Positions 7,141-17,017 of a stretch of DNA of 25,075 nucleotides are shown here, piece by piece. Source of the stretch: a virus. Both the position numbers and the translations under genes were made by a program. The stretch lies in IMG/VR virus record IMGVR_UViG_3300045538_000441, positions 1 through 25,075 of that record, one strand, 5' to 3'. Position 1 is the stretch's first letter. Each line of letters begins with the position of its first letter. The notes beneath the pieces were generated by a model. It was not told the origin of the DNA, made no database searches, and saw only the letters and a program-made list of their open reading frames with translations.

Positions 7141-7168
7141 TTGACGAAAGTTAAATCTGATGTATAGT
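7141..7168 (+). promoter_or_regulatory. Internal tRNA promoter
   Basis: TTGACG (7141-7146), N16, TATAGT (7163-7168); the tRNA starts 15 nt downstream. Confidence 0.8.
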
Positions 7169-7182
7169 TATGGAAGTCGAAA

Positions 7183-7254: not shown

Positions 7255-7256
7255 CA

Positions 7257-7363: not shown

Positions 7364-7375
7364 CGAAAGATTTAG

Positions 7376-7403
7376 TTGACGGAAAGAAAAAGTGGTGTAG
7401 AGT
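7376..7403 (+). promoter_or_regulatory. Internal tRNA promoter
   Basis: TTGACG (7376-7381), N16, TAGAGT (7398-7403); tRNA-Glu starts 34 nt later. Confidence 0.8.
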
Positions 7404-7436
7404 AGTTGAAGTTAGTTGATCTTTGTAGAACGTAAT

Positions 7437-7512
7437 AGTGTCGTCGTATAACGGTTAATACTCTCGGCTTTCAACCGAAGAACGGCGGGTTCAACTCCCC
7501 CCGACACTACCA
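7437..7512 (+). tRNA. tRNA-Glu(TTC)
   Basis: Acceptor AGTGTCG/CGACACT, A73, CCA. Anticodon loop CTTTCAA in a TCGG/CCGA stem. Canonical T-loop TTCAACT. Confidence 0.92.
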
Positions 7513-7520
7513 TTTAGAAT

Positions 7521-7596
7521 TGCGGGTTGGAGAAGTCCGGCCCATCTCGTTACGCTCATAACGTAAAGATCCTTGGTTCAAATCCAAGACCCGCTA
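7521..7596 (+). tRNA. tRNA-Met(CAT), initiator-like
   Basis: Anticodon arm TTACG-CTCATAA-CGTAA gives CAT. Two initiator traits are visible. Positions 1 and 72 do not pair (T1/T72, next to GCGGGT/ACCCGC). The D-stem GAGA/TCTC has A11-T24, the purine-pyrimidine order typical of bacterial initiators. The three G-C pairs usually at the base of the initiator anticodon loop are missing, so the assignment is not certain. CCA is not encoded. Confidence 0.8.
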
Positions 7597-7618
7597 CAGA
7601 ATTTTAACTCACGTTCCA

Positions 7619-7660
7619 TGTGAACGAGGAGCTAGGTGTGGATTTAGGTTCACACTTCAT
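7619..7660 (+). terminator. Possible terminator after the first tRNA segment
   Basis: TGTGAAC (7619-7625) pairs with GTTCACA (7648-7654) around a 22-nt loop, followed by cttcatttt. Weak U-tract. Confidence 0.4.
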
Positions 7661-7683
7661 TTTCAGAAAAAAAGAAAAAAGAT

Positions 7684-7711
7684 TTGACTTTTAGAAAACT
7701 CGGTCTATACT
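7684..7711 (+). promoter_or_regulatory. Promoter of a short transcript
   Basis: TTGACT (7684-7689), N16, TATACT (7706-7711). Followed by an 18-codon ORF and a terminator. Confidence 0.8.
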
Positions 7712-7721
7712 TATTGACGTA

Positions 7722-7778
7722 ATGATGACAACCAAACACAATTTTATTAAGCGCGATTGCCAAGGAGGCAACGGCTGA
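7722..7778 (+). CDS. Possible 18-residue microprotein or leader peptide
   Basis: ATG ATG start 10 nt after the -10, the spacing used by other genes here. The peptide reads MMTTKHNFIKRDCQGGNG. It is closely followed by a terminator hairpin, so the whole unit is about 130 nt and could instead be a small RNA. No homolog recognised. Confidence 0.4.
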   Translation: MMTTKHNFIKRDCQGGNG

Positions 7779-7803
7779 TTCTTCGTGTTTATACCGAATG
7801 TCG

Positions 7804-7840
7804 CCGTCAACCTCCGAAAGTAGTTGACGGTTTTTTGTTT
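7804..7840 (+). terminator. Strong intrinsic terminator
   Basis: CCGTCAAC (7804-7811) / GTTGACGG (7823-7830), 11-nt loop, then TTTTTTGTTT. Confidence 0.9.
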
Positions 7841-8000
7841 TGGGTTTTTAGTCTGTTTCCCTTTAAAAAATGTCAGACCGTAGAGGTAGAGTCTAAACGA
7901 CAGAACCGGGTTCTAAAAGAACTCACCAACGAAGGTCAAGCGTGACGACAGCACGAAATACTGTCGTTTAGTGTCACGTCATAATAGTTATTGGACAACT
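7841..8000 (+). other. Non-coding stretch before the HNH gene, with nested hairpin
   Basis: No credible gene. It contains a nested inverted repeat, CGACAG/CTGTCG (7946-7967) inside GTGA/TCAC-type outer pairs, directly before the HNH gene. Could be a terminator, a leader structure or the boundary of the mobile element. Confidence 0.4.
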
Positions 8001-8561
8001 ATGTATGACATTAAAGGAAAAAAATTTGGTAAATTAACCGTTGTAGAATTTTCACATTTAACAAAATGGAAGCATGCAACGTGGAAATGTAAGTGTGATT
8101 GTGGCAGAGAAATCTTCACTCAAACACGATTGTTAAGAGATGGAAGTAAAACAAACTGTGGGGCTTGGTGTGAACAACGAAATCTTGCGAAAAAACATCC
8201 TAACTGGAAAGGATTTGGAGAGATAAGTTTATCCCAGTTTCACCACATCAAAAAAGATGCAATTAGCAGGGGAATTCATTTTGACATAGGTATTGAATTT
8301 ATGTCAAACCTGTTTCTTAAACAAAATCGTAGATGTGCGTTATCTAATGTGGAGATTTCTATGGGAAGTTATAAGAAAAAAGTAAATGATAAAACCGCGT
8401 CATTGGATAGAATAGACAGCTCACTTGGTTACACTGTGGATAATGTTCAATGGGTTCATAAGGATATAAATAAAATGAAGTGGGATTTCAAAATGGACCG
8501 ATTTTTGGAGTTAGTGGAGAAAATTCACAATCATAAAAATCCCGCTGTAGCTCCAATGTAG
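8001..8561 (+). CDS. HNH-family homing endonuclease
   Basis: 186 residues from ATG 8001 (the frame is open to GTG 7971, but family members typically start with a D-x-x-G-KKFGKLTV segment as here: MYDIKGKKFGKLTVVE). A Cys cluster follows (WKCKCDCG, then NCGAWC). The C-terminal nuclease region reads LDRIDSSLGYTVDNVQWVHKDINKMK, the His-Me/HNH form common in phage homing endonucleases. The gene is AT-richer than its surroundings and its last codons lie inside tRNA-Phe, as expected for a mobile gene targeting a tRNA. The protein would cut an unoccupied tRNA locus; target unproven. Confidence 0.85.
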   Translation: MYDIKGKKFGKLTVVEFSHLTKWKHATWKCKCDCGREIFTQTRLLRDGSKTNCGAWCEQRNLAKKHPNWKGFGEISLSQFHHIKKDAISRGIHFDIGIEFMSNLFLKQNRRCALSNVEISMGSYKKKVNDKTASLDRIDSSLGYTVDNVQWVHKDINKMKWDFKMDRFLELVEKIHNHKNPAVAPM

Positions 8562-8615
8562 AGCGGTCGCCTGAAGAGCGACGCGTTGCCAGTTCAAGTC
8601 TGGCCGGCGGGACCA
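8541..8615 (+). tRNA. tRNA-Phe(GAA), overlapped by the HNH gene
   Basis: Acceptor CCCGCTG/CGGCGGG, A73, CCA. Anticodon arm GTCGC-CTGAAGA-GCGAC. T-loop TTCAAGT. The HNH stop codon TAG (8559-8561) is the TAG of its D-loop. Confidence 0.95.
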
Positions 8616-8681
8616 TTTTATCACGGAACGGGTTTGTTCCCGCTAGTCGTATGAGTATGGAGTCATGTTTGATAAATTTTT

Positions 8682-8755
8682 GGGGTATTAGTGTAATGGT
8701 TTAGCAACAGCATCCTGTCACGGTGCAAGAACGGGTTCGATTCCCGTATATCCCG
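8682..8755 (+). tRNA. tRNA-Asp(GTC)
   Basis: Acceptor GGGGTAT/ATATCCC, G73; anticodon arm GCATC-CTGTCAC-GGTGC. CCA not encoded. Confidence 0.93.
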
Positions 8756-8774
8756 CAGTTCAGTTTGATTTAAT

Positions 8775-8846
8775 TCCAGAGTGGGATAACGGTAGTCCTC
8801 CGTCCTGTTAAGACGAAAGGTGTTTGTTCGACTCAAACCTCTGGAG
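8775..8846 (+). tRNA. tRNA-Asn(GTT), copy 1
   Basis: Acceptor TCCAGAG/CTCTGGA, G73; anticodon loop CTGTTAA in CGTC/GACG; D-stem GGA/TCC; T-loop TTCGACT. CCA not encoded. Confidence 0.93.
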
Positions 8847-8852
8847 CATAAT

Positions 8853-8928
8853 GGTCACGTAATTCAATGGATAGAATGCTCGCCCGATTAGCGAGACGTT
8901 GTGGGTTCGACTCCTACCGTGAGGACCA
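8853..8928 (+). tRNA. tRNA-like, anticodon position GAT with C33
   Basis: Anticodon arm CTCGC-CCGATTA-GCGAG places GAT (Ile) at 34-36, but position 33 is C instead of U. The D-loop (TTCAATGGATAGAAT) is Arg-like. The acceptor GGTCACG/CGTGAGG has two G-G mismatches at the end, followed by ACCA. Probably degenerate or of changed identity. Confidence 0.6.
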
Positions 8929-8934
8929 AAAATT

Positions 8935-9117
8935 ATGAATTCACATGTTACAAAAGAATTGATTGACAAATACCCAAATCTTGAATTCCGAGGGAAATCA
9001 TATTTCAAGTCTGGTAAAAAATACATTAAAGCCAGATACAAAGACCCGGAGATAAGATTGATTTTTAAGAGACGATTTGAATACTCTTTTGAAGAAGATT
9101 TCTTTTGGTTCGTTTGA
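8935..9117 (+). CDS. Small AT-rich ORF between tRNAs, possible endonuclease remnant
   Basis: 60 residues, Lys/Phe/Tyr-rich (MNSHVTKELIDKYPNLEFRG; ends EEDFFWFV). It starts 6 nt after one tRNA and ends 2 nt before the next. Composition resembles the mobile genes here more than the phage core genes, but no motif is visible. Confidence 0.45.
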   Translation: MNSHVTKELIDKYPNLEFRGKSYFKSGKKYIKARYKDPEIRLIFKRRFEYSFEEDFFWFV

Positions 9118-9119
9118 AT

Positions 9120-9191
9120 GGCCCTATCGTCTATCGGATAAGACCACTTGTTCTCAACAAGAAAAGCTCAGTTCGATTCTGAGTAGGGCTA
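9120..9191 (+). tRNA. tRNA-Glu(CTC)
   Basis: Acceptor GGCCCTA/TAGGGCT, A73; anticodon loop TTCTCAA in CTTG/CAAG; T-loop TTCGATT. CCA not encoded. Confidence 0.9.
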
Positions 9192-9208
9192 CAGTTGGTT
9201 GTTGGAAT

Positions 9209-9284
9209 TCCGGTCTAGCTCAATTGGTAGAGCTTTCGGTTGTTACCCGAATGGTTTCAGGTTCGAGTCCTGAGTCCGGAGCCA
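9209..9284 (+). tRNA. tRNA-Asn(GTT), copy 2
   Basis: Acceptor TCCGGTC/GTCCGGA with one T-T mismatch, G73, CCA. Anticodon arm TTCGG-TTGTTAC-CCGAA. Canonical D-loop (CAATTGGTAG) and T-loop. Confidence 0.92.
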
Positions 9285-9291
9285 AATTTAT

Positions 9292-9363
9292 TCCCGAGTA
9301 ATGTTAAAGTAGCATGCGCGGCTGTTAACCGTGACGAGAGGGTGCATAGTCCTTCCTTGGGAG
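9292..9363 (+). tRNA. tRNA-Asn(GTT)-like, copy 3, with aberrant D- and T-loops
   Basis: Acceptor TCCCGAG/CTTGGGA and anticodon arm CGCGG-CTGTTAA-CCGTG are good. The D-loop (TTAAAGTAG) lacks GG, and the T-loop is TGCATAGT (8 nt) without TTC. The two normal elbow partners are thus missing together. Confidence 0.65.
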
Positions 9364-9373
9364 CCTTTAGTTT

Positions 9374-9449
9374 GCCTGTATAGTGAAATTGGAAATCACG
9401 TCACTCTACGAAAGTGAAATTCTTGGTTCGAGTCCAAGTAAAGGCACCA
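9374..9449 (+). tRNA. tRNA-Arg(ACG)
   Basis: Anticodon arm TCACT-CTACGAA-AGTGA; D-arm GTGA/TCAC with TTGG; T-arm CTTGG-TTCGAGT-CCAAG; acceptor GCCTGTA/TAAAGGC with one G-A mismatch; ACCA. A better acceptor match, GCCTTTA, lies 11 nt upstream (9363-9369), suggesting a small duplication or insertion. Confidence 0.88.
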
Positions 9450-9454
9450 GTGCG

Positions 9455-9544
9455 GAGAGAAGATAGACGTAAAACTTGATCAGTAGCCGCGCTACCTGAT
9501 GGTAGGGAGTCGTGGTTGGAACTATGTGAAATCCTTTAATCTCG
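9455..9544 (+). ncRNA. Structured RNA element, copy A
   Basis: Shares the paired-end motif of the seven-copy family: 5' AAG-AT-AGACGT and 3' GTGAA-AT-C-CTT, extended by GAGA/TCTC. Internal hairpin ATCAG...CTGAT with TAG/CTA. Lies between tRNA-Arg(ACG) and tRNA-Lys(TTT). Confidence 0.65.
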
Positions 9545-9573
9545 ATGCCCGATTTTTTAGTTGAGAATTTAAC

Positions 9574-9661
9574 GCTGTCGTTCCCTTAGTTGGCCGAAAG
9601 GACCGGACTTTTAATCCGGCGAGGTAACACTCCATCGTGGGTTCGACTCCCACCGACAGCA
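9574..9661 (+). tRNA. tRNA-Lys(TTT) with long variable arm, copy 1
   Basis: Acceptor GCTGTCG/CGACAGC, A73. Anticodon arm CCGGA-CTTTTAA-TCCGG. The variable region is 17 nt with a GAG/CTC stem, and the D-arm contains TTGGCCGA as in Ser/Leu-type tRNAs. T-arm GTGGG-TTCGACT-CCCAC. Class II shape with a Lys anticodon. Confidence 0.88.
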
Positions 9662-9674
9662 TCAGTTTATTTAC

Positions 9675-9751
9675 GGGTCGTTAACTCAAGTGGTTTAGAG
9701 TCCTGCCTCTTAAGCAGCGAGATGCTGGTTCAAATCCAGCACGACCCACCA
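9675..9751 (+). tRNA. tRNA-Lys(CTT), copy 1
   Basis: Acceptor GGGTCGT/ACGACCC, A73, CCA. Anticodon loop CTCTTAA in CTGC/GCAG. Normal 5-nt variable loop. Confidence 0.94.
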
Positions 9752-9772
9752 TTTAGCCATGTGAGATGAAGG

Positions 9773-9850
9773 TTATTATTGGTGTAAGAGCACATTTCCA
9801 CATTACGGAAAAGGATATGAACCCGGCACGGCCGGCCGAATCATAATAAT
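9773..9850 (+). pseudogene. tRNA-like remnant
   Basis: A tRNA-sized stretch closed by TTATTAT (9773-9779)/ATAATAA (9843-9849), with an anticodon-like arm TTTCC-ACATTAC-GGAAA. There is no normal D-loop or T-loop (a CCGGC-ACG-GCCGG hairpin sits where the T-arm should be). Not assignable to an isotype. Confidence 0.35.
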
Positions 9851-9876
9851 AAATGAAGTAAGTCGCATGGTAAGCA

Positions 9877-9937
9877 ACTGATAGACCTCGGCGCCGAGGG
9901 AACGTTATTACGTGAAATCCAGACCCCTTTTTGTTTT
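9877..9937 (+). ncRNA. Structured RNA element, copy B (short), with T-rich tail
   Basis: Carries CTG-AT-AGA (from 9878) and GTGAA-AT-C-CAG (to 9922) around a CCTCGG-CGCC-GAGG hairpin. The pyrimidine/T-rich tract after it (cccctttttgttttt) could make it a terminator ahead of the gene at 9958. Confidence 0.5.
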
Positions 9938-9957
9938 TGTATCATATTTATTGTTAT

Positions 9958-10647
9958 ATGACAAAAACCGAATTAAAAGAAGTGATAAAAAATGTGATTC
10001 TTGAAGAGTTAAAAAATGATCCATGTTGGAAAGGATATGAGATGGTAGGAATGAAGGATAAAAATGGTAAATCCGTTCCAAACTGTGTGCCAATAAAGGA
10101 AAATGAGGAGTCTAATAACTATATGTTTTGGCAGAATCTCAAAACCATAAATCACGCAACCAGTGAATTGTTAAAAATGGATGTCAACAAACTTGATATG
10201 CTTTTAGCCGATGGTCATGGATGGGCTTTGGATCACGTTTCAACTTCTGCTGACGACATAGAGGAAGTTTATCATTTCGTTGAGAGTAACATAAATGAGT
10301 CTCGTAAAGATTCGGAGGACGAACATACTATTAAAACAGATGAAGAACTACTTGAGTTTCTACACTTTTTAAAAGAAGATTCATTGATAAATGAGAATTT
10401 AAAAGAAGCCGAATATCGTGGACGAAAGGTTAAGTTAAACAAACCTATGCGTGGAGATGTAAAAAAGTTCAAGGTATTTGTCAAAGATCCAAAATCTGGA
10501 AATATAAAGAAGGTTAATTTTGGTGATCCTAAGATGAGAATCAAAAAAAATAACCCTAAACGAAGAAAATCTTTCAGAGCCAGATTTAACTGTGAAAATC
10601 CAGGTCCAAAGACTAAAGCTAGATATTGGAGCTGCCGAAAATGGTGA
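9958..10647 (+). CDS. Virion-type protein with prohead-core-like segments
   Basis: 229 residues. The segment NDPCWKGYEMVGMKDKNG (about 20-37) and the C-terminal block (KLNKPMRG..., FGDPKMRIKKNNPKRRKSF, ARYWSCRKW) resemble segments I know from head-core or scaffold-associated proteins of T4-like cyanophages and pelagiphages. The C-terminus is strongly basic. The role here is inferred: capsid assembly or DNA packaging support. It is an unusual inhabitant of a tRNA array, has AT-rich codons, no SD, and its TGA (10645-10647) lies inside tRNA-His, so the pair may have moved together. Confidence 0.7.
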   Translation: MTKTELKEVIKNVILEELKNDPCWKGYEMVGMKDKNGKSVPNCVPIKENEESNNYMFWQNLKTINHATSELLKMDVNKLDMLLADGHGWALDHVSTSADDIEEVYHFVESNINESRKDSEDEHTIKTDEELLEFLHFLKEDSLINENLKEAEYRGRKVKLNKPMRGDVKKFKVFVKDPKSGNIKKVNFGDPKMRIKKNNPKRRKSFRARFNCENPGPKTKARYWSCRKW

Positions 10648-10720
10648 TATTGTTGTAATGGTTTTAGCATCACTTCCTGTGAAGAAGTCGGAGCGGGTTC
10701 GATTCCCGTATATCACCCCA
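10643..10720 (+). tRNA. tRNA-His(GTG) with G-1
   Basis: G-1 (10643) pairs with C73, the His identity hallmark. Acceptor GTGATAT/ATATCAC, CCA encoded. Anticodon arm ACTTC-CTGTGAA-GAAGT. The first bases are shared with the last codons of the upstream gene. Confidence 0.93.
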
Positions 10721-10741
10721 ACAATTAAGTCAAAATAACCG

Positions 10742-10769
10742 TTGACGTTTTTAGAAAAAGTGGTAGTAT
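10742..10769 (+). promoter_or_regulatory. Internal tRNA promoter with +1 at the tRNA 5' end
   Basis: TTGACG (10742-10747), N16, TAGTAT (10764-10769), extended TGn. Only 7 nt separate it from the tRNA, so the primary transcript may begin at or next to the mature 5' end. Confidence 0.8.
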
Positions 10770-10776
10770 TGTCCTT

Positions 10777-10861
10777 GGTCAGACGAACTCATACTGATCA
10801 GTGAGTCGTGGACGATAAGTGATTATCACAAGTAAAACGGTTCGACTCCGTTGTTTGACCA
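10777..10861 (+). tRNA. tRNA-like gene, isotype not assignable
   Basis: Acceptor GGTCAGA/TTTGACC, A73, T-arm AACGG-TTCGACT-CCGTT and D-arm ACTCA/TGAGT are convincing. The anticodon region (10824-10843) forms GATAA-GTGA-TTATC with a 4-nt loop rather than 5 bp plus 7 nt. Has its own promoter. Confidence 0.6.
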
Positions 10862-10910
10862 TCTTAATTTTTTGAAAGGTTTGTAGTAATCTGCAGGTTG
10901 TTACAAACTG

Positions 10911-11033
10911 GTGGATAGACGGTTTTAGTCAAAACGCTCTTCTAAGTGGTAGGATGCCGGCAGAAAGCTGGTAAATGGTGGTTTCGATGCCCACCGCGTA
11001 GCGACGTTAAACCGGAACAACGTGAAATCCCAC
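10911..11033 (+). ncRNA. Structured RNA element, copy C
   Basis: Ends pair as GTGG-AT-AGACGG / CGTGAA-AT-C-CCAC. A second stem CGGTTT/AAACCG lies just inside, followed by GCCGGC...GCTGG and GGTGG...CCCACC hairpins. Lies between two tRNAs. Confidence 0.7.
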
Positions 11034-11046
11034 ACCCAAATTTAAT

Positions 11047-11123
11047 GGGCCAGTAGCATCAATGGTAATGCGTCTCACTTGCAATGAGAAATTTGTGGGT
11101 TCGACTCCCACCTGTGTCCACCA
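11047..11123 (+). tRNA. tRNA-Ala(TGC) with a bulged acceptor stem
   Basis: Anticodon arm TCTCA-CTTGCAA-TGAGA. T-arm GTGGG-TTCGACT-CCCAC. The acceptor GGGCCAG pairs with CTGTGTCC only if one T is bulged (8 nt opposite 7). A73, CCA. Confidence 0.85.
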
Positions 11124-11133
11124 TTTTTTGAAT

Positions 11134-11216
11134 GCCTAAGTCGCATAGCGGCGATTGCACCGTTTTTGTAAAGCGGAATACAAACACCGGGGGTTCGAGT
11201 CCCTCCTTAGGCTCCA
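11134..11216 (+). tRNA. tRNA-Thr(TGT), copy 1, 12-nt variable region
   Basis: Acceptor GCCTAAG/CTTAGGC, T73, CCA. Anticodon arm CCGTT-TTTGTAA-AGCGG. Variable region AATACAAACACC is longer than the usual 4-5 nt. T-loop TTCGAGT. Confidence 0.9.
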
Positions 11217-11303
11217 GTTTTATCGAATTTGCGTTTCAATCCGTGATTCTATACAGTGATATTCGACTGTGATAACGGGAAAAATAGAGCGCCCATTTCA
11301 GTT

Positions 11304-11380
11304 GGGTCGGTAGTTCAATTGGTTTAGATGCGCGCCTCTTAAGCGTTGCGATATGGGTTCGAGTCCCATCCGGCCCACCA
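11304..11380 (+). tRNA. tRNA-Lys(CTT), copy 2
   Basis: Acceptor GGGTCGG/CCGGCCC, A73, CCA. Anticodon loop CTCTTAA with stem GCGC/GCGT. T-arm ATGGG-TTCGAGT-CCCAT. Confidence 0.92.
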
Positions 11381-11388
11381 AAAATTTA

Positions 11389-11516
11389 GACGGATAGATG
11401 TGAAAGGCCCCATTACGGGATGAGTAACAGAATAGGTTGATAAACATTAGTAGTTGTGACCACCGCCCGGGCTGCAAAGGTGGAGACTACAAGATGTAAA
11501 CCAGTGAAATCCCGTC
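11389..11516 (+). ncRNA. Structured RNA element, copy D (long form)
   Basis: Ends GACGG-AT-AGATGTGAAAGG / GTGAA-AT-C-CCGTC. Inside: CCC...GGG hairpin, the word GATGAGTAA, then a long nested arm GGTT/AACC, ACAT/ATGT, GTAGT/ACTAC, CCACC/GGTGG topped by GGGCTGCAAA. The stems match those of copy E with compensatory base changes. Confidence 0.8.
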
Positions 11517-11529
11517 GGCCTTTCCAAAT

Positions 11530-11603
11530 TGGGATGTAGCATAATGTATTGCACCTCGCTTTGAACGAGAAGATTGGGGGTTCAAGTCCCTCCGTCCCAG
11601 CCA
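11530..11603 (+). tRNA. tRNA-Gln(TTG)
   Basis: Acceptor TGGGATG/CGTCCCA, G73, CCA. Anticodon loop CTTTGAA in CTCG/CGAG. Confidence 0.94.
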
Positions 11604-11608
11604 TCCAT

Positions 11609-11682
11609 AGTCCCTTAACATAACGGCCGTGTGCTCGTCTCTGAAACGAGTTAAATTGGTTCGACTCCAATAGGGACTGCCA
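11609..11682 (+). tRNA. tRNA-Gln(CTG)
   Basis: Acceptor AGTCCCT/AGGGACT, G73, CCA. Anticodon arm CTCGT-CTCTGAA-ACGAG. T-arm ATTGG-TTCGACT-CCAAT. 5 nt after tRNA-Gln(TTG). Confidence 0.94.
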
Positions 11683-11683
11683 C

Positions 11684-11711
11684 TTGACAATTAAAAAAAG
11701 TGTGGTAGTAT
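11684..11711 (+). promoter_or_regulatory. Promoter, leaderless type
   Basis: TTGACA (11684-11689), 1 nt after the CCA end of tRNA-Gln; N16; TAGTAT (11706-11711), extended TGn; ATG 6 nt later. Confidence 0.85.
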
Positions 11712-11717
11712 TTACTC

Positions 11718-11882
11718 ATGTTCGCATGTTGTGAAAACTGTTACAAGAAATACCTCACCAAAGACGGAGATGTTGATTGGGAGTTGTATTTGAAACTTGA
11801 ACCTGATCACAATCAAAACGAGGAAAATTCCACCGTCTGTAAGTGTTATTGCCACCGAGTTGATCTAACCGTTTTACATTGA
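11718..11882 (+). CDS. Small Cys-rich, probable zinc-binding protein
   Basis: 54 residues beginning MFACCENCYKKYLTKDG and ending VCKCYCHRVDLTVLH. Four to seven Cys plus a His (C4, C5, C8 and C41, C43, C45, H46) form a plausible zinc knuckle. It precedes a second small Cys protein (Lar-like). Its TGA is part of the next -35 box. Specific function unknown. Confidence 0.7.
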   Translation: MFACCENCYKKYLTKDGDVDWELYLKLEPDHNQNEENSTVCKCYCHRVDLTVLH

Positions 11883-11906
11883 CATTTAAAATAAATCTGA
11901 TATAGT
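11879..11906 (+). promoter_or_regulatory. Promoter overlapping upstream stop codon
   Basis: TTGACA (11879-11884) contains the upstream TGA; N16; TATAGT (11901-11906), extended TGn; ATG 10 nt later. Confidence 0.85.
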
Positions 11907-11916
11907 TATTCTACAA

Positions 11917-12120
11917 ATGAAATTGCACGTCGAAAAATGCCCGTTCTGTGGTTGTGATGAAGTTGAGTTCCAACGTGGAACCCCTGATAGGGAAGGTGTT
12001 CCCACACAAGCAATGTGTATTGATTGTGGTGCTTCTGGTCCAGGTGTTTATGAGAAAGACGACCGTAACTTTCTGAAGGCACTTGACGCGTGGAATGAAC
12101 GTATCATCCAAAGGCGTTAA
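11917..12120 (+). CDS. Lar-like zinc-ribbon protein (restriction alleviation family)
   Basis: 67 residues with the pattern of the Lar family: CPFCG at residues 8-12, CIDCGASGP at 34-42, and a C-terminal helix ALDAWNERI. Two CxxC pairs should bind one zinc. Characterised Lar proteins relieve type I restriction by modulating EcoKI-type methylation, but many phage members are annotated by fold alone, so anti-restriction is a hypothesis. Own promoter, no SD. Confidence 0.8.
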   Translation: MKLHVEKCPFCGCDEVEFQRGTPDREGVPTQAMCIDCGASGPGVYEKDDRNFLKALDAWNERIIQRR

Positions 12121-12121
12121 T

Positions 12122-12469
12122 ATGAAATCAAGAACCATAGTATTTAGTGTTCAATATAAGATTTTGTATAAATTTGGATCATTTCTGTCGTCCTCGTTGA
12201 GTTCTGATTCTCTTGAAGGATTACGGAAATTGATGGTTAACCGGGTCGAGAGCGCCAGAAATAACGACACCGAGGCAATTTTGTTTGAACCGATTGTAAA
12301 GACGATTATCTCAAAAACTGAAGCCCGGGGGTCTTTCGTTCAATTCGTTCCAAAGTTATCTACCGGCGTTTATTACGGAGAAGAAACGGTCAGTCAAGAA
12401 TGTTACAAACCCTTCAAGCATCGTGGGTCTGGACGGCAAGGCAACTCTCTGCAAAAGAGTTTCAAGTAG
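12122..12469 (+). CDS. Hypothetical protein whose 3' end runs into tRNA-Cys
   Basis: 115 residues starting 1 nt after the Lar-like stop (TAATATG). Begins MKSRTIVFSVQYKILYKFGS; no recognised domain. The last 17 codons lie within the tRNA-Cys gene (12418-12493) and the stop TAG is in the T-arm, so the natural C-terminus may have been replaced when the tRNA arrived. Confidence 0.6.
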   Translation: MKSRTIVFSVQYKILYKFGSFLSSSLSSDSLEGLRKLMVNRVESARNNDTEAILFEPIVKTIISKTEARGSFVQFVPKLSTGVYYGEETVSQECYKPFKHRGSGRQGNSLQKSFK

Positions 12470-12493
12470 GTTCGACTCCTACACGGTGCTCCA
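12418..12493 (+). tRNA. tRNA-Cys(GCA)
   Basis: Acceptor GCATCGT/ACGGTGC, T73, CCA. Anticodon arm ACTCT-CTGCAAA-AGAGT. T-arm GTAGG-TTCGACT-CCTAC. Overlaps the upstream coding frame by 52 nt. Confidence 0.93.
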
Positions 12494-12496
12494 TTT

Positions 12497-12679
12497 ATGA
12501 AAAGAAAATATCTGCACGTTGAAATCTCCCTTGGGTCGTTACATATTTATGCCGATGACCGGCGTTGGCCAGGAGACAAGTTGGTGACTCTTGATGAAAT
12601 TGACACTGAATGTAATCTTCACGACGTTGAAGATGGTGATGTGTGTTTCACCGTTCCGATAAACGAATTTCTTAATTGA
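12497..12679 (+). CDS. Small hypothetical protein, 60 aa
   Basis: Starts 3 nt after the tRNA-Cys CCA. Acidic, begins MKRKYLHVEISLGSLHIYAD. Probably read from upstream with the tRNA, which would require RNase processing to separate the two. Its TGA (12677-12679) is in the next -35 box. Confidence 0.65.
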   Translation: MKRKYLHVEISLGSLHIYADDRRWPGDKLVTLDEIDTECNLHDVEDGDVCFTVPINEFLN

Positions 12680-12703
12680 CTTTTTATCGTTTGGTGATAG
12701 AGT
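12676..12703 (+). promoter_or_regulatory. Promoter overlapping upstream stop codon
   Basis: TTGACT (12676-12681) with the upstream TGA; N16; TAGAGT (12698-12703), extended TGn; start codon GTG 8 nt later. Confidence 0.85.
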
Positions 12704-12711
12704 TGTCCTAC

Positions 12712-12894
12712 GTGAATGACACTGTTTATAGATCGAAAAATGGAACTCGGTGGAGATTCCTCTCAGAAGGTTACGGTGGGTTCGCTGGATTCAATGAATA
12801 CGTCCGAGTGAAGGATGGACACCGACTCTACCACAGAGTAGAGGAAATGGTGGAAGAATCAGAGTGGTTGAAGAATCGTAAGACAAAGAGTTAA
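12712..12894 (+). CDS. Small hypothetical protein, GTG start
   Basis: 60 residues. GTG 12712 is chosen because it lies 8 nt after the -10, where other genes have ATG; the frame upstream of it is the promoter. Reads (M)NDTVYRSKNGTRWRFLSEGY, a small beta-rich protein with a charged helical tail. A GTG on a leaderless mRNA would be unusual; a start at the internal ATG 12718 is out of frame. Confidence 0.65.
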   Translation: MNDTVYRSKNGTRWRFLSEGYGGFAGFNEYVRVKDGHRLYHRVEEMVEESEWLKNRKTKS

Positions 12895-12895
12895 T

Positions 12896-13252
12896 ATGAA
12901 GATATACAATTACGGCGTCAACAACGGATCCGATATTCACGTCTGTCATGTAAATTGTTGTTTCCGGCATAAATCAAAGGTCGAACCAATCTCAAATATC
13001 GTAGAATCCGTGACGTCATGTATCGACGACGCCACTGAACTTTATAAACGAAAAGCTTTGGCACTGAAAGTATATTACTGGCATCTTAACTTTTGGTTAG
13101 AGTCAGAGAATATGGATGATCTTAAAAAAGATGTCAAGACTGTGGCCGACTTGCTCTTAAAAATTGATCTTGACGACGGTTCCGTGGAATTTGAATTTGA
13201 AACCATTCACAATACTATGAATATGGAGATTAGAAATGAAAGCAAACGTTGA
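12896..13252 (+). CDS. Hypothetical protein, 118 aa
   Basis: Starts 1 nt after the previous TAA. Begins MKIYNYGVNNGSDIHVCHVN with an early Cys/His cluster (HVCHVNCCFRHK, residues 15-26), then a helical acidic region. No family recognised. Overlaps the next gene by 17 nt. Confidence 0.65.
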   Translation: MKIYNYGVNNGSDIHVCHVNCCFRHKSKVEPISNIVESVTSCIDDATELYKRKALALKVYYWHLNFWLESENMDDLKKDVKTVADLLLKIDLDDGSVEFEFETIHNTMNMEIRNESKR

Positions 13253-13445
13253 AGCATGGCTACACGGTAATGAAGATGGTTGGGATGATGGTTATCATGA
13301 CCGCCCACGCCGCCCACTTAAAGACACGTTTACGTTTCCTGTGAATTGGACGGATGATGAAAAGAAAAGTTATATCCGAGGATATGACAGTGGGTTTGAT
13401 GAATCATCAAACCCTGGGTTTGATGATGAACGTTGGAACTGTTGA
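13236..13445 (+). CDS. Small acidic protein with G-x-x-x-G repeats
   Basis: 69 residues. Two similar segments, HGNEDGWDDGYHDRPRRP (10-27) and YIRGYDSGFDE (46-56), separated by DEKK. The paired Gly/Trp/Tyr pattern recalls the ribosome modulation factor group, but the match is loose. Starts inside the upstream gene, so probably translationally coupled. Confidence 0.6.
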   Translation: MKANVEAWLHGNEDGWDDGYHDRPRRPLKDTFTFPVNWTDDEKKSYIRGYDSGFDESSNPGFDDERWNC

Positions 13446-13453
13446 TTTAGATT

Positions 13454-13543
13454 GCAAGTGTTCGCTTAGTTGGCCGAAAGCACCCGGCTTTTAACCGGGA
13501 GAGTAATACTCCATCGTGGGTTCAAATCCCACCACTTGCACCA
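13454..13543 (+). tRNA. tRNA-Lys(TTT) with long variable arm, copy 2
   Basis: Perfect acceptor GCAAGTG/CACTTGC, A73, CCA. Anticodon arm CCCGG-CTTTTAA-CCGGG. 16-nt variable region with GAG-TAATA-CTC. D-arm with TTGGCCGA; T-arm GTGGG-TTCAAAT-CCCAC. Paralog of the gene at 9574. Confidence 0.9.
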
Positions 13544-13572
13544 TTCGAGTTCAAGTCTCGCCAGAGTCACCA
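13544..13572 (+). pseudogene. 3' fragment of a tRNA
   Basis: Contains CGAG-TTCAAGT-CTCG, then the acceptor 3' strand and ACCA, but no 5' half. Directly follows the CCA of tRNA-Lys, as expected for a deletion or recombination scar. Confidence 0.7.
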
Positions 13573-13577
13573 ATTTT

Positions 13578-13814
13578 ATGTGGGAAAAAATTACAAAAGA
13601 ATTAGTCTGCAATAGAGAAGGTGGCTGCACTCATATTTTTGATGAGTCTAATCTAAGGGCCAGCCTGCGCTCCTATTTGAGTGACGAAAGCAGGAGCCGA
13701 TACGGTGGTGAGAATTTCTCCACAGATAAATGCTTCATAAACGGGATACAATGGCACTTAGATGGTTTGAAGTGTTTGTTGATTTCCCTTGACGGCAAGG
13801 CCAAACAGGACTAA
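13578..13814 (+). CDS. Small hypothetical protein, 78 aa
   Basis: ATG 13578 is preferred; the longer frame would run through tRNA-Lys. Begins MWEKITKELVCNREGGCTHI with four Cys in all. No family recognised and no SD. Confidence 0.6.
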   Translation: MWEKITKELVCNREGGCTHIFDESNLRASLRSYLSDESRSRYGGENFSTDKCFINGIQWHLDGLKCLLISLDGKAKQD

Positions 13815-13936
13815 GATATTTTGGTGGGTGTGGGGAACAAAACGACGGGCGCTCCTTCGGGACTCCGTTCAGGCAGAGACAAAGCGGCGGGAGCCTTACA
13901 AAACTCTGTGCAATTTTGCGGGAGATTAGTTGAATA
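13815..13936 (+). other. GC-rich non-coding stretch, possible structured RNA
   Basis: No credible ORF. Short inverted repeats are present (CTCCTTCGGGACTCCG; GGGAG...CTCTG), and the composition is closer to an RNA gene than to the flanking coding sequence. It does not match the seven-copy element. Confidence 0.3.
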
Positions 13937-13956
13937 GTGCAATTGCACCATTTTTG
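13937..13956 (+). terminator. Possible terminator (palindrome plus T-run)
   Basis: GTGCAATTGCAC palindrome (13937-13948) followed by catttttg. The stem is short (4 bp if a 4-nt loop is allowed). Confidence 0.4.
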
Positions 13957-13987
13957 TTCTTTGACGGTTGAGATAACCAACGTAGGC

Positions 13988-14170
13988 GTGGATCAATGTC
14001 GGTTTGTTACCAGCACCACGATTACCTATAGGCTTCGTAGCCCACTACGACAGTACTCTCCGTCATGGTTTTATTTGAATGAAGACCGTGGAGGCAACAA
14101 CCTCTATGAATCAGCTGAAATGTGGTATCCGGTAAACTTCATTCATCACGGTCAATTAATTCAATGGTAG
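13988..14170 (+). CDS. Hypothetical protein ending in the D-loop of tRNA-Ile
   Basis: 60 residues if GTG 13988 is used; the frame is open to 13937. A TTGACG-N16-TAGGCG promoter-like pair (13961-13988) overlaps this GTG, so the start is uncertain. The sequence (VDQCRFVTSTTITYRLRSPL) has no known family. The stop TAG (14168-14170) is the TAG of the tRNA-Ile D-loop. Confidence 0.45.
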   Translation: MDQCRFVTSTTITYRLRSPLRQYSPSWFYLNEDRGGNNLYESAEMWYPVNFIHHGQLIQW

Positions 14171-14220
14171 AATGGAGTCTTGATAAGGCTTTCACGAAGG
14201 TTCGATTCCTTCATTGACTA
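14150..14220 (+). tRNA. tRNA-Ile(GAT)
   Basis: Acceptor GGTCAAT/ATTGACT, A73. Anticodon arm GAGTC-TTGATAA-GGCTT. T-arm GAAGG-TTCGATT-CCTTC. CCA not encoded. Confidence 0.9.
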
Positions 14221-14234
14221 CAGAAACTTCGTGG

Positions 14235-14262
14235 TTGACAATCTTATAAAAAGTGATAGAGT
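14235..14262 (+). promoter_or_regulatory. Promoter, leaderless type
   Basis: TTGACA (14235-14240), N16, TAGAGT (14257-14262), extended TGn; ATG 8 nt later. Confidence 0.85.
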
Positions 14263-14270
14263 TGTCCTAC

Positions 14271-14474
14271 ATGAGACATCCAGCTGACATTGTAAAGAAC
14301 ATCGACGAAATCCTCACCGTATTGGACGGCGCTGACCCAAAGGGTGCCAGCCTCGAAAACTACGACGCACTCCACGCCATCCGACATGTTTTAGGCCGAA
14401 AGAGTAAGTGGGAAGTCATCGGTGAAGCAACGCGATTTAAACGTCGGTTGAAGAAGAATTCGGTCACGGTATAA
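14271..14474 (+). CDS. Small hypothetical protein, 67 aa
   Basis: ATG 14271 is set by the promoter; the in-frame ATG upstream (14253) lies in the promoter spacer. Begins MRHPADIVKNIDEILTVLDG; helical, with a basic end (FKRRLKKNS). Function unknown. Confidence 0.7.
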   Translation: MRHPADIVKNIDEILTVLDGADPKGASLENYDALHAIRHVLGRKSKWEVIGEATRFKRRLKKNSVTV

Positions 14475-14489
14475 ATCAAACACAAAATT

Positions 14490-14687
14490 ATGGCACGAGA
14501 AAACATCTACGACAGTAACAGCTCACTCCGAGGTTCACTTGTCACCGAATCCAATGGTGACGTGAGGGTGTATAACAAGTATTCTCAACTGGTCGGAGTC
14601 TGGCGAGAAAGCGCTGGTAAGGCTTACGATGCCAATTCCCGCCTCATCGGTTCATCCATCGCAATGATTTATTCGCTTCTCGATTGA
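14490..14687 (+). CDS. Small beta-repeat protein (three YD-like repeats)
   Basis: 65 residues carrying three imperfect repeats: IYDSNSSLRGSL, VYNKYSQLVGVW and AYDANSRLIGSS, spaced about 20 residues apart. This resembles short YD/Gly-turn beta repeats found in other phage small proteins. Starts MARENIYDSN, 15 nt after the previous stop; no SD. Its TGA (14685-14687) lies in the next -35 box. Confidence 0.7.
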   Translation: MARENIYDSNSSLRGSLVTESNGDVRVYNKYSQLVGVWRESAGKAYDANSRLIGSSIAMIYSLLD

Positions 14688-14711
14688 CATTTTATCATTA
14701 ACTGATACAGT
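14684..14711 (+). promoter_or_regulatory. Promoter overlapping upstream stop codon
   Basis: TTGACA (14684-14689) containing the upstream TGA; N16; TACAGT (14706-14711), extended TGn; ATG 8 nt later. Confidence 0.85.
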
Positions 14712-14719
14712 TATCTCAC

Positions 14720-14932
14720 ATGAATGACCTAATTAAAGCCCTTACGATTCTCGCCAAATACAACGGTTTGGGGGAGGAATACGCTCCAACTCATTGTGAA
14801 CACGATGAACTCATCGTCAACGGCGTCGAGTGGGATGAACTATCCGACGAGGATAAGAAGGCGTTGGACGAGTTGGGATTCCACGAAGGAGAATATTATG
14901 GTGTGTCATCTTTTCGGTTTGGTAGTAATTAA
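14720..14932 (+). CDS. Small acidic protein, 70 aa
   Basis: Very acidic (DELIVNGVEWDELSDEDKKA), with the ELSDEDKKALDELGF pattern of a short helical domain. No known family. Leaderless type start. A tRNA follows 6 nt after its TAA. Confidence 0.7.
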   Translation: MNDLIKALTILAKYNGLGEEYAPTHCEHDELIVNGVEWDELSDEDKKALDELGFHEGEYYGVSSFRFGSN

Positions 14933-14938
14933 CTAATT

Positions 14939-15014
14939 GGCCCGAAGCTTAAATCTTTGTATAAGCGCCCGCCTCATAAGCGGAAGAGAGCCAGGACGAG
15001 TGCTGGTCGGGCCA
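14939..15014 (+). tRNA. tRNA-Met/Ile2(CAT)-like with aberrant D- and T-loops
   Basis: Acceptor GGCCCGA/TCGGGCC, A73. D-stem CTTA/TAAG. Anticodon arm CCGC-CTCATAA-GCGG. The D-loop (AATCTTTGTA) has no GG, and the T-arm CCAG-GACGAGTG-CTGG has no TTC. The antisense strand is also the 3' end of the endonuclease gene at 14949-15776. Confidence 0.65.
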
Positions 15015-15776
15015 ACATTTCCAACCTTTCGAGGTTAAACCCCTCAAAAGTCGTTTGTAACTTACTTTATCAAACTCCCACCATTCTTTCCGACTAAGAG
15101 TTTTTTGTTCATTTGTCTCGACATTGAACGCGGTGATAGGAGGTTTTCTAGGTTTTTGAAATTTAAGTTTGACCTCCGGACGATTTAGACACTTCAATGA
15201 AGTTTCACGTCTTCGTTCAGATGTATAATTTGATGGAGAGGTAAGTTTGTGTTTTCGTTTAGAAATACGAGAAACATATTCATGAGGAAGTTTTAGACGT
15301 TTCCCCTTATTGTAAGGAACGATTCCCTTCAGTGTCTTGCTTATCAATCGTTTAAAATGTTCCGGGTATCCAACGGACCAACCATTTTTGACATATTCAC
15401 CGACTGAGTCAGGTGATACTATAGTTCGGATTTCATTTTTAAAAATCCATTTTTTACCTTTAGTTCCATTAGTTCGTGATGTGGAACCACCTTGACCGAT
15501 TTCTTCAATCATGTTCATCCAGTCATCACTTTGAACGATGTTAAATTTGATGCTGTATTCCAATGAGATCTTACTGAATGTGGCGGTTTCGGATTCTGGA
15601 CATTTATAAAGAATTTCAGTGGTGAAATCAAATCCATGTTCTTTTAAATGGGGTTTCCAAATGAGGCCTGATCCGCAGTATTTTATCGCTTTCTTATCCG
15701 TGGTTGTCAGTTTCTTACACAGATATTTCTTACCCGTAAGATTGTGGGTTTTTATCATTAAATAAAGATACTTCAT
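14949..15776 (-). CDS. GIY-YIG/Seg-like homing endonuclease with NUMOD-type C-terminus
   Basis: 275 residues from ATG 15776. The N-terminus MKYLYLMIKTHNLTGKKYLC, then KYCGSGLIWKPHLKEHG, is the form used by a phage group of GIY-YIG-related nucleases. Later segments WIFKNEIRTIVSPDS and SKTLKGIVPYNKGKR resemble NUMOD DNA-binding repeats. The ATG overlaps the stop of a small upstream gene (ATGA). It runs antisense to the tRNA array, and its last 22 codons are the complement of the tRNA at 14939, suggesting insertion next to that tRNA. Confidence 0.75.
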   Translation of the reverse strand: MKYLYLMIKTHNLTGKKYLCKKLTTTDKKAIKYCGSGLIWKPHLKEHGFDFTTEILYKCPESETATFSKISLEYSIKFNIVQSDDWMNMIEEIGQGGSTSRTNGTKGKKWIFKNEIRTIVSPDSVGEYVKNGWSVGYPEHFKRLISKTLKGIVPYNKGKRLKLPHEYVSRISKRKHKLTSPSNYTSERRRETSLKCLNRPEVKLKFQKPRKPPITAFNVETNEQKTLSRKEWWEFDKVSYKRLLRGLTSKGWKCWPDQHSSWLSSAYEAGAYTKI

Positions 15777-15916
15777 TTGGCGTCTTTGTTTTGATAGTAT
15801 CTGTCGAGGTTCTCTTTTTTGAGACGTTCGTGATGTTTCCAATAATGTCTCATCTGACGTTCACGTCTCGCTTGACATTTTTCTTCTTCGGTGGTATATT
15901 TTTTGAATCTTCCCAT
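15773..15916 (-). CDS. Small basic helical protein preceding the endonuclease
   Basis: 47 residues: MGRFKKYTTEEEKCQARRER, then RHYWKHHERLKKENLDRYY. The W/Y-x-x-H/N-x-E-R-x-K pattern is common in DNA-binding coiled segments of mobile-element proteins. The stop overlaps the endonuclease start (ATGA), so the two are coupled; it may be a separated N-terminal domain. Confidence 0.6.
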   Translation of the reverse strand: MGRFKKYTTEEEKCQARRERQMRHYWKHHERLKKENLDRYYQNKDAK

Positions 15917-15987
15917 GTGGGAATACATAGTGTTCTACGAACTTAAAAGTTCAATAAAAGTAGAACAAGTTCTTTTAAAACAATTTA

Positions 15988-16158
15988 CCAGTGGATAGAT
16001 CCAATGCAAAACGACTAAGTCTCGGATGTGTTGGAGAATAATTAGGTTTTCTTTACTAAAAAAACTCACGGTTTTCGGTCTTGATAATTGACCGAGTTGT
16101 GGATGGTTCCCGCAATCTGTATCATCCGGAGAAGTTTTTTCCTGTGAAATCCCACTGG
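15988..16158 (+). ncRNA. Structured RNA element, copy G (longest)
   Basis: Ends CCAGTGG-AT-AGATCC / CTGTGAA-AT-C-CCACTGG: a 7-bp outer stem. Inside: AACTC...GAGTT with CGGTC-TTGATAATT-GACCG, and GGATG...CATCC. 9 nt before copy E. Confidence 0.7.
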
Positions 16159-16167
16159 ACACTTTCA

Positions 16168-16298
16168 GACGGATAGACGTGAAAGGCCCACTTACAAGTG
16201 GGATGAGTAATGGAATTGGTTGACAAGCGTTAGTAGACAAGACTGCCGCCGGCTGCGAAGGCAGAGTTTACATGAATGCATACCAGTGAAATCCCGTC
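16168..16298 (+). ncRNA. Structured RNA element, copy E (long form)
   Basis: Ends GACGG-AT-AGACGTGAAAGG / GTGAA-AT-C-CCGTC. Inside: CCCACTT/AAGTGGG hairpin, GATGAGTAA, then GGT/ACC, GCGT/ATGC, GTAGAC/GTTTAC and CTGCC/GGCAG stems topped by CGGCTGCGAA. Base pairs differ from copy D but remain paired. Confidence 0.8.
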
Positions 16299-16307
16299 GG
16301 TCTTTAT

Positions 16308-16390
16308 TGCTGCGTCGCATAGTGGCCGATTGCACTGCCCTCATAAAGCAGAATAACACATCGTCGGTTCGAATCCGACCGCAGCAACCA
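16308..16390 (+). tRNA. tRNA-Met or Ile2(CAT), 11-nt variable region
   Basis: Acceptor TGCTGCG/CGCAGCA, A73, CCA. Anticodon loop CTCATAA with stem CTGC/GCAG. Variable region AATAACACATC. D-arm GCATAGTGGCCGATTGC resembles that of tRNA-Thr(TGT) at 11134. Met versus lysidine-modified Ile cannot be told from sequence. Confidence 0.88.
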
Positions 16391-16474
16391 CACCGTTCAT
16401 CCTTTTAACATTTTCGAGATGTTTATTTGAGTCGAAGGAGAAATGATTGACAGACTCGAAACGGTGTTTATAGC

Positions 16475-16552
16475 GGGCTCGTGGTGAAACTGGATATCAT
16501 CCTTGGCCTCGAACCAAGAGTTTTGGGGGTTCAAATCCCTCCGGGCCTACCA
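16475..16552 (+). tRNA. tRNA-Arg(TCG) with C33
   Basis: Acceptor GGGCTCG/CGGGCCT, A73, CCA. D-arm GTGA/TCAT with an Arg-like loop (AACTGGATA). Anticodon arm CTTGG-CCTCGAA-CCAAG: TCG at 34-36 but C, not U, at 33. T-loop TTCAAAT. Confidence 0.85.
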
Positions 16553-16580
16553 GTTTGTGAAAGAGATGAAGGTTGGAAAA

Positions 16581-16649
16581 TAGATATTGATGTAACGGTA
16601 GCCTGGCTGCCCGTAAGCGGCTCGAGTGGTTCGACTCCACATGTTTCAT
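16581..16649 (+). pseudogene. Degenerate tRNA-Thr(CGT)-like sequence
   Basis: D-region (TGATGTAACGGTAGCCT) matches tRNA-Thr(GGT) at 16848. Anticodon stem GCTGC/GCGGC closes a 6-nt loop CCGTAA. The T-arm GTGG-TTCGACT-CCAC is good, but no 5' acceptor strand pairs with the 3' end. Confidence 0.55.
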
Positions 16650-16679
16650 TGACCAAATGTAGTAACTCAGTTCACGAGA

Positions 16680-16758
16680 ATCCGATAGATCCTATCTGGG
16701 AGGTACCCCCAGAGGAGAACAACAAAACGGCTGCATGGCGGCCGCGTGAAATCCGGAT
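16680..16758 (+). ncRNA. Structured RNA element, copy F
   Basis: Ends ATCCG-AT-AGATCC / GCGTGAA-AT-C-CGGAT. Contains the palindromic repeat CTGGGAGGTACCCCCAG as an internal hairpin and a GCTGCATGGCGGC arm. Confidence 0.65.
16696..16712. repeat. Palindromic repeat (copy 1 of 4)
   Basis: CTGGGAGGTACCCCCAG; CTGGG pairs with CCCAG. Here it forms an internal hairpin of the structured RNA copy F. Confidence 0.6.
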
Positions 16759-16768
16759 CAATTTTCTC

Positions 16769-16843
16769 TACGACGATGGTGTAGCGGTAACATAGCCGGC
16801 CAAATAATTGCCGGAGTCAGAGGTTCGAACCCTCTCGTTGTAG
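16769..16843 (+). tRNA. tRNA-like gene with a 9-nt anticodon loop
   Basis: Acceptor TACGACG/CGTTGTA, G73; D-arm GGTG...ACAT with GG; T-arm AGAGG-TTCGAAC-CCTCT canonical. The anticodon stem CCGGC/GCCGG closes a 9-nt loop CAAATAATT with no U33, so no isotype can be given. Confidence 0.65.
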
Positions 16844-16847
16844 TGAT

Positions 16848-16919
16848 GCCTCCTTGATGTTAATGGTAGCCTACTTCACCGGTAATGAAGTTGACAGAGT
16901 TCGATTCTCTGAGGAGGCT
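16848..16919 (+). tRNA. tRNA-Thr(GGT) with C33
   Basis: Acceptor GCCTCCT/AGGAGGC, T73. Anticodon arm CTTCA-CCGGTAA-TGAAG (C33). T-arm CAGAG-TTCGATT-CTCTG. CCA not encoded. Confidence 0.88.
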
Positions 16920-16930
16920 CTTTCGGAAAT

Positions 16931-17017
16931 GCCCATGTAACCGTAACTGGTAACGGCCCCGTTTCGTAAACGGGAGGAGAAATCCGCCTGCAGGTTCGAC
17001 TCCTGCCATGGGCTCCA
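16931..17017 (+). tRNA. tRNA-Thr(CGT) with long variable arm
   Basis: Acceptor GCCCATG/CATGGGC, T73, CCA. D-stem CCGT/ACGG. Anticodon arm CCCGT-TTCGTAA-ACGGG. 15-nt variable region with GGA-GAAA-TCC. T-arm GCAGG-TTCGACT-CCTGC. Confidence 0.92.

Follow-up and report, generated by a model that had tools for sequence, protein, structure and literature searches.

A three-way junction RNA family among the tRNA genes of uncultured phages

Seven copies of a structured RNA in a viral tRNA island

The sequence analysed here, the window, is the whole of the IMG/VR virus record IMGVR_UViG_3300045538_000441 (25,075 bases). ARAGORN and the Rfam tRNA model identify about 29 tRNA genes in it, the majority in a single island at positions 6896 to 17017 whose tRNA genes all lie on the plus strand. 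The initial annotation had placed seven segments with common ends within this island and regarded them as an unrecognised structured RNA family. All seven are where it put them, on the plus strand, and each has GATAGAY at its 5' end and GTGAAATCC at its 3' end; we call them copies A to G. Judging from their sequences and those of their relatives, they form a new and widespread family of small phage RNAs. On the plus strand of the window GTGAAATCC occurs seven times, always as the 3' end of a copy, and seven of the nine occurrences of GATAGAY are the 5' ends of copies, the other two (816 and 6766) being unpaired and far upstream.

All copies share the consensus P1-GAUAGA-P2-GA-P3-GAAAUCC-P1', a three-way junction in which about 15 bases are invariant while the stems vary freely. 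P2 and P3, as read from the sequence, are present in every copy of the window with the invariant GA between them. They range widely in size (14 to 95 nucleotides [nt] for P2 and 7 to 108 nt for P3), and the start of P3 is standard, with A-C...G-U in copies A, B, C, and G and A-U...G-U in D, E, and F. The P1 pair next to the junction is a G-C, accompanied by a conserved extra C on the 3' side. The observation that the closing stems differ in sequence yet stay paired was borne out: uninterrupted P1 pairs beyond the closing G-C number 3, 2, 3, 4, 6, 4, and 4 in copies A to G, and their sum of 26 is reached by only 8 of the 5,040 permutations of the downstream flanks (mean, 10.3). Leaving out copy F, a near-copy of D, 3 of 720 permutations reach the observed sum.

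The minimal form, of about 45 nt, is copy B (9878 to 9922), with P1 CTG/CAG, GATAGA at 9880 to 9885, P2 at 9886 to 9899 (CCTCGG-CG-CCGAGG), GA at 9900 to 9901, P3 at 9902 to 9913 (ACGT-TATT-ACGT), and GAAATCC at 9914 to 9920. Copy A (9455 to 9543) starts 6 nt past tRNA-Arg(acg) and has an outer stem GAGA/TCTC and P1 GAAG/CTTT. Its GATAGA (9462 to 9467) is followed by a P2 at 9468 to 9518 with a strong internal hairpin but weak closing pairs, then by GA (9519 to 9520), P3 (9521 to 9527), and GAAATCC (9528 to 9534). Copy C (10911 to 11033; P1 GTGG/CCAC) ends about 13 nt 5' of tRNA-Ala(tgc). It is made up of GATAGA (10914 to 10919), a P2 at 10920 to 11014 that is closed by CGGTTT/AAACCG and encloses a cloverleaf-like fold, GA (11015 to 11016), P3 (11017 to 11023), and GAAATCC (11024 to 11030).

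Copies D and F have the same P1, GACGG/CCGTC. Copy D (11389 to 11516) lies between tRNA-Lys(ctt) and tRNA-Gln(ttg), with GATAGA at 11393 to 11398, P2 TGT..ACA at 11399 to 11429, GA at 11430 to 11431, a long P3 at 11432 to 11505, and GAAATCC at 11506 to 11512. Copy F (16168 to 16298) precedes tRNA-Met(cat) and has GATAGA at 16172 to 16177, P2 CGT..ATG at 16178 to 16212, GA at 16213 to 16214, P3 at 16215 to 16287, and GAAATCC at 16288 to 16294. It is related to D by compensatory changes that swapped the stems; the three compensated inner stems of the initial annotation do exist in this pair and are located in P3. The P2 regions of both copies (11389 to 11430 and 16168 to 16213, plus strand) place GAA opposite AGTA, the sequence of a loop E or sarcin-ricin type motif. 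Copy E (15988 to 16158; P1 CCAGTGG/CCACTGG) has a 9-bp P2 at 16000 to 16035 and a very long P3 at 16038 to 16145, with GATAGA at 15994 to 15999, GA at 16036 to 16037, and GAAATCC at 16146 to 16152. Copy G (16680 to 16758; P1 ATCCG/CGGAT) precedes tRNA-Tyr(ata) and comprises GATAGA at 16684 to 16689, P2 TCCT..AGGA at 16690 to 16716, GA at 16717 to 16718, P3 at 16719 to 16747, and GAAATCC at 16748 to 16754.

Other features surround these copies. The window encodes HNH and GIY-YIG-type endonuclease genes, and an open reading frame on the minus strand (14949 to 15842) that adjoins copies E and F resembles GIY-YIG homing endonucleases in its N-terminal sequence and has no PHROG match. Two tRNA-like oddities on the plus strand, at 10773 to 10862 and at about 9760 to 9865, are not called by ARAGORN; the former ends in GGTTCGACTCC and TTTGACCA. 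An Rfam match to CyVA-1 fits exactly into the gap between tRNA-Met and tRNA-Arg, at 16390 to 16467 (plus strand). It scores 35.7 bits against a gathering score of 41.4 (E value of 3e-5 in a 7.5-kb search) and is probably a divergent member of that family.

Relatives, covariation, and comparison with known RNAs

A scan of viral contigs with the pattern GATAGAY(12-42)GGAAC(3-20)GTGAAATCC gave 66 viral stretches, against 4 for the pattern read backwards. Including variant patterns and excluding chance matches, we count 84 elements in 64 sequence clusters, in addition to the long-P2 set, so that the element has homologs well beyond the genome in which it was noticed. Loci were picked by exact patterns; extra copies within these loci and all seven copies of the window were not. 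We set aside as chance matches L013/L057 (tRNA sequence), the L006 group, L018, L029, L058, L075, L076, L078 to L080, and L101 to L103. Among the carriers are small fragments as well as contigs as large as 463 kb, and up to seven copies occur along one array. No close relative of the window's array turned up in some 50,000 phage records. A stricter pattern matched bacterial and archaeal genomes (257 Gb) only once, near the one or two matches estimated for chance; this match does look element-like. We found no description of the motif in the literature searched, which covered few subscription papers and preprints.

The covariation that the initial annotation had proposed to look for is present. 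In an alignment of 41 distinct elements, with the P2 and P3 loops shortened, the structure named above scores 0.495, against 0.155 for shuffles, none of 500 of which reaches it, and at most 0.149 when the pairing partners are slid. Compensatory changes are seen at seven pairs of P1 and three of P2, and P3 varies at its third pair, which can be GC, AU, CG, GU, or UA. The closing pair of P2 provides an independent test of the pairing, because it swaps between C-G (GATAGAC..GGAAC, about 55 plausible elements) and U-A (GATAGAT..AGAAC, 24 matches), while the mispaired form GATAGAC..AGAAC has only 3 matches, the chance level. When the junction was loosened by up to two mismatches, only five further candidates with P1 and P2/P3 support appeared; hence, its bases are nearly invariant. 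A covariance model built without the window sequences (R1) detects copy B with 32.9 bits (E value of 7.8e-7; the E values of this model are rough) and part of copy C with 17.5 bits. It misses the copies with long inserts, as its short loops would lead one to expect. Six loci (L052, L084 to L087, and L089) form a subfamily in which P1 continues past a purine-rich internal loop (5x5) into an outer helix that covaries between TGG/CCA and TAG/CTA; they also have the P2 loop GAGTAGGGCACGA in common.

No family of Rfam 15 matches the element, which agrees with its being unrecognised at the outset. In the window, tRNA alone reaches the threshold, and no family overlaps any copy even at an E value of up to 5. 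Among 26 relatives the matches are to tRNA, transfer-messenger RNA (tmRNA), and GOLLD, none of them the element itself, and two single elements searched with permissive settings gave only chance-level or unrelated matches. The element resembles the hammerhead ribozyme in having three helices about a purine-rich junction, a GA that faces GAAA next to one of the helices, and U-A at the place of the cleavage site. The bases GAAAUCC and GAUA, invariant in the alignment, recall the GAAA strand and UH of the hammerhead, as a resemblance only, and the GA, GAAA, and U-A of the element could be set beside G8-A9, G12-A13-A14, A15.1-U16.1, and H17. However, none of the 41 aligned copies has the CUGANGA strand: P2 and P3 have only GA between them, and AGA rather than a single base connects P1 to P2.

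Gut phages carry theta ribozymes, which are hepatitis delta virus (HDV)-like and have their cleavage site at the 3' ends of tRNAs (PMC10879173). Like the element, they are small structured RNAs beside tRNA genes in phage tRNA islands. They differ from it in fold: the covarying helices of the element are simply nested in a three-way junction, with no HDV-type Rfam match to point to a nested double pseudoknot. Nor does a tRNA 3' end directly abut the element, the nearest upstream tRNA ending 9 nt before GATAGA and most lying far more distant. The doubt about theta ribozymes that the initial annotation had expressed on account of stem order was thus justified.

Other RNAs of tRNA clusters were compared as well. 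The T4 RNAs rnaC and rnaD and the T5 RNAs RNA1, RNA2, RNA3, RNAIV, and others are, by their record annotations, small stable RNAs of tRNA clusters, some of them tRNA-like. T4 rnaC/rnaD, the T5 tRNA region, and part of Felix O1 hold no GATAGA-GTGAAATCC pair, only scattered near-matches. GOLLD and ROOL are phage RNAs of unknown function found near tRNA islands (PMC12286853), but they are hundreds of nucleotides long, have other folds, and their Rfam models do not match the element. One GOLLD RNA lies in the same RNA island as the element, in carrier locus L092 (2703 to 3165, minus strand). tmRNA resembles some carriers in its tRNA-like body with a T-arm and without an ordinary anticodon arm, but its model does not match the element; tmRNA genes occur near element copies in L036 (1477 to 1823) and L044 (1128 to 1512). 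We dropped two further likenesses: that of GGAAC/GUGAAAUCC to the helix 21 loop of 16S rRNA, because this loop is not universal, and that to integron attC sites, whose core sequences the element lacks.

Association with tRNA genes and tRNA-like bodies

The link of the family with tRNAs is well supported. A tRNA gene lies within 400 nt of 58 of the 84 elements, and all 142 tRNA genes within this distance are on the same strand as the element; the other 26 elements have no ARAGORN tRNA in this range. Many elements stand 12 to 26 nt 5' of a tRNA and others 9 to 20 nt 3' of one. The association extends into the element itself, since 16 of 23 long P2 arms contain a tRNA T-arm, against 1.5% of dinucleotide shuffles. 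Some of these arms are cloverleaf-like, with a D-arm and a T-arm (L036, L049, L072, the L005/L008/L015/L068 group, and copy C of the window), and have an irregular loop, often of 4 to 6 nt, at the anticodon position.

Six P2 arms (L106, L120, L121, L125, L128, and L133) are circularly permuted, in the order T-arm, acceptor hairpin, D-arm. In L125, L128, and L133 the acceptor strand with ACCA is followed by three linker bases and the 5' strand of the acceptor. ARAGORN recognises none of the six in native order. After rotation it calls five of them when a lowered threshold is requested and three (L120, L125, and L133) at its default, against 0 of 460 shuffles in any rotation. In these rotated bodies the element stands where the anticodon loop would be. 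Even the best choice of joining points restores a canonical 7-nt loop in only three of the six. Circularly permuted tRNA genes with a bulge-helix-bulge have been described (PMC3978253). The P2 bodies, as distinct from the element itself, resemble them in having the 3' half first, a short linker at the acceptor end, and a pairing leader and trailer. They differ in that leader and trailer here are P1 and a sequence-conserved three-way junction, with no normal anticodon loop.

The element may also lie inside a tRNA-like gene. In L054 it occupies the anticodon arm, and ARAGORN recognises a tRNA once a loop replaces it. Removal of the element yielded a tRNA in 1 of 59 cases, L054 itself, and in 0 to 1 shifted controls. 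Positions resembling a T-arm (L014, L025, L063, L074, and the L044 group), the D-arm (L034), and the anticodon arm (L055) are less certain; they rest on acceptor pairing, CCA ends, and reading of the sequence, because the removal test worked only for L054, and tRNA-like bodies outside the ARAGORN tests were classified partly by eye. An acceptor-like helix followed by NCCA accompanies 18 of 85 elements, against 7.1% of swapped controls, and the tRNA-type 3' end CGACCA is found within 80 nt downstream in 8 of the 64 clusters and in none upstream, far downstream, or on the other strand. A general closing helix around all elements was not above the swapped-flank control. The CCA-ended carriers L014, L025, L034, L074, and L063 have a common acceptor type, CG(G/A)...CG-A-CCA, whose C1-G72/A73 end is otherwise typical of bacterial tRNA-Pro.

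Some carrier loci hold further unusual tRNA genes. The anticodon loop of one in L003 (4154 to 4276, minus strand) is interrupted by about 52 conserved nt (CTGTGGGCC...GGCCAAAGTTAA), fewer than a group I intron would need, and the same insert is present in L005, L008, L016, L021, L040, L048, and L064. Its removal could give the anticodon GTT. Another tRNA with an insert lies in L015 (667 to 808). In L038 (about 6218 to 6430) a perfect inverted repeat, of 23 bp by script and 28 bp by eye, encloses an element and a tRNA-like stretch and may be likened to an RNase III processing stalk.

Possible functions of the element

The same core thus occurs in three settings: free between tRNAs, around a tRNA-like body, and inside one. 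Attachment to such bodies through P1 or P2, seemingly at different arms, suggests a self-contained module. From a module independent of its attachment, with an invariant junction and free helices, one would expect an autonomous binding or catalytic domain. We tentatively favour a stable RNA acting in trans and matured by the tRNA machinery, with a ribozyme as the main rival. The element would be transcribed together with the tRNAs and then freed and stabilised by tRNA maturation (RNase P, 3' processing, and CCA ends), either released by cuts at the adjoining tRNAs or carried on a tRNA-like scaffold. The freed RNA could then work in trans through its GA/GA/GAAAU junction, a putative working site that would most likely bind a widely conserved host factor, with P2 and P3 as short, long, or tRNA-like handles. 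Most simply, the tRNA context would give transcription, end maturation, and stability.

Several points weigh against a trans-acting RNA. Its accumulation and action are inferred from sequence, a position between tRNAs would be equally expected of a cis-acting processing or antitermination signal, and the invariant junction would suit the active site of a ribozyme equally well. Searches of sequenced phage isolates with the window array, one large-phage locus, and 24 concatenated elements gave no meaningful match, so we can name no carrier.

The element might be a small self-cleaving ribozyme of a new kind, which would cut between the tRNAs of the polycistronic transcript in the manner proposed for theta ribozymes; this is possible if somewhat unlikely. 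Small ribozymes typically share its small size, its nested stems, and its combination of variable stems with an invariant junction, and the hammerhead-like arrangement would place the likeliest cut within the GAU-A-GA segment, opposite GAAAU. Many copies per array on a constant strand, at short distances before or after tRNAs, would also suit a processing ribozyme, as would the precedent of theta ribozymes at phage tRNA 3' ends (PMC10879173). However, the hammerhead strand missing from every aligned copy and the absence of any match to an Rfam ribozyme model speak against it, as do the elements with no tRNA nearby, and several copies apparently lie in the arms of tRNA-like RNAs with CCA ends, so that cleavage would nick these molecules. 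A cis-acting signal of the long untranslated tRNA transcript, such as a put/boxA-type antitermination element or a docking site for a host RNase, would explain why the element is always on the transcribed strand and why up to seven copies are spread over one array. We consider it unlikely, since some contexts are small, poor in tRNAs, and have a single copy joined to a CCA-ended tRNA-like RNA, and since some P2 arms enclose a whole tRNA-like body.

The permuted bodies make a splicing-type element attractive, in which P1 and the junction would join or circularise the tRNA-like body as the bulge-helix-bulge does for the disrupted and permuted tRNA genes found in archaea and red algae. In all six bodies (3' half, ACCA or loop, short linker, 5' half) the element sits exactly at the open anticodon end, and the tRNA recovered from L054 also fits. 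Yet the joining points do not converge on a canonical loop beyond half of the permuted cases, splicing would not make normal tRNAs of bodies attached through the acceptor stem or T-arm, and of 40 carrier contigs, many being fragments, only 4 encode RtcB; such an element is improbable. Finally, tRNA islands rearrange easily, and a structured element might have been fused with decayed tRNA genes as a neutral by-product of crowding, leaving bodies without functional meaning. Many bodies do lack a usable anticodon. However, their T-arms retain the canonical GG-TTCRA-CC form, the junction hardly varies between very different phages, and this process would account at most for the bodies and not for the core; it is highly improbable. 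A broader catalytic reading, in which the junction, as a new catalytic RNA, cleaves phage tRNA-like transcripts (those of circularly permuted genes included) and may also religate them, appears quite unlikely. If true, bacteriophages would have an RNA-only equivalent of what proteins do in the processing of disrupted tRNA genes.

The element represents a new RNA family with an almost invariant junction resembling an active site. It is carried by dozens of distant, uncultured phages, and the scanned cellular genomes are almost devoid of it. If catalytic, it would be a new class of ribozyme; if it binds a host factor, very different phages would have hosts with this target in common. The permuted tRNA-like bodies merit attention in their own right. 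The family also gives a concrete object to an old question: why the tRNA clusters of phages such as T4 and T5 hold stable, partly tRNA-like RNAs.

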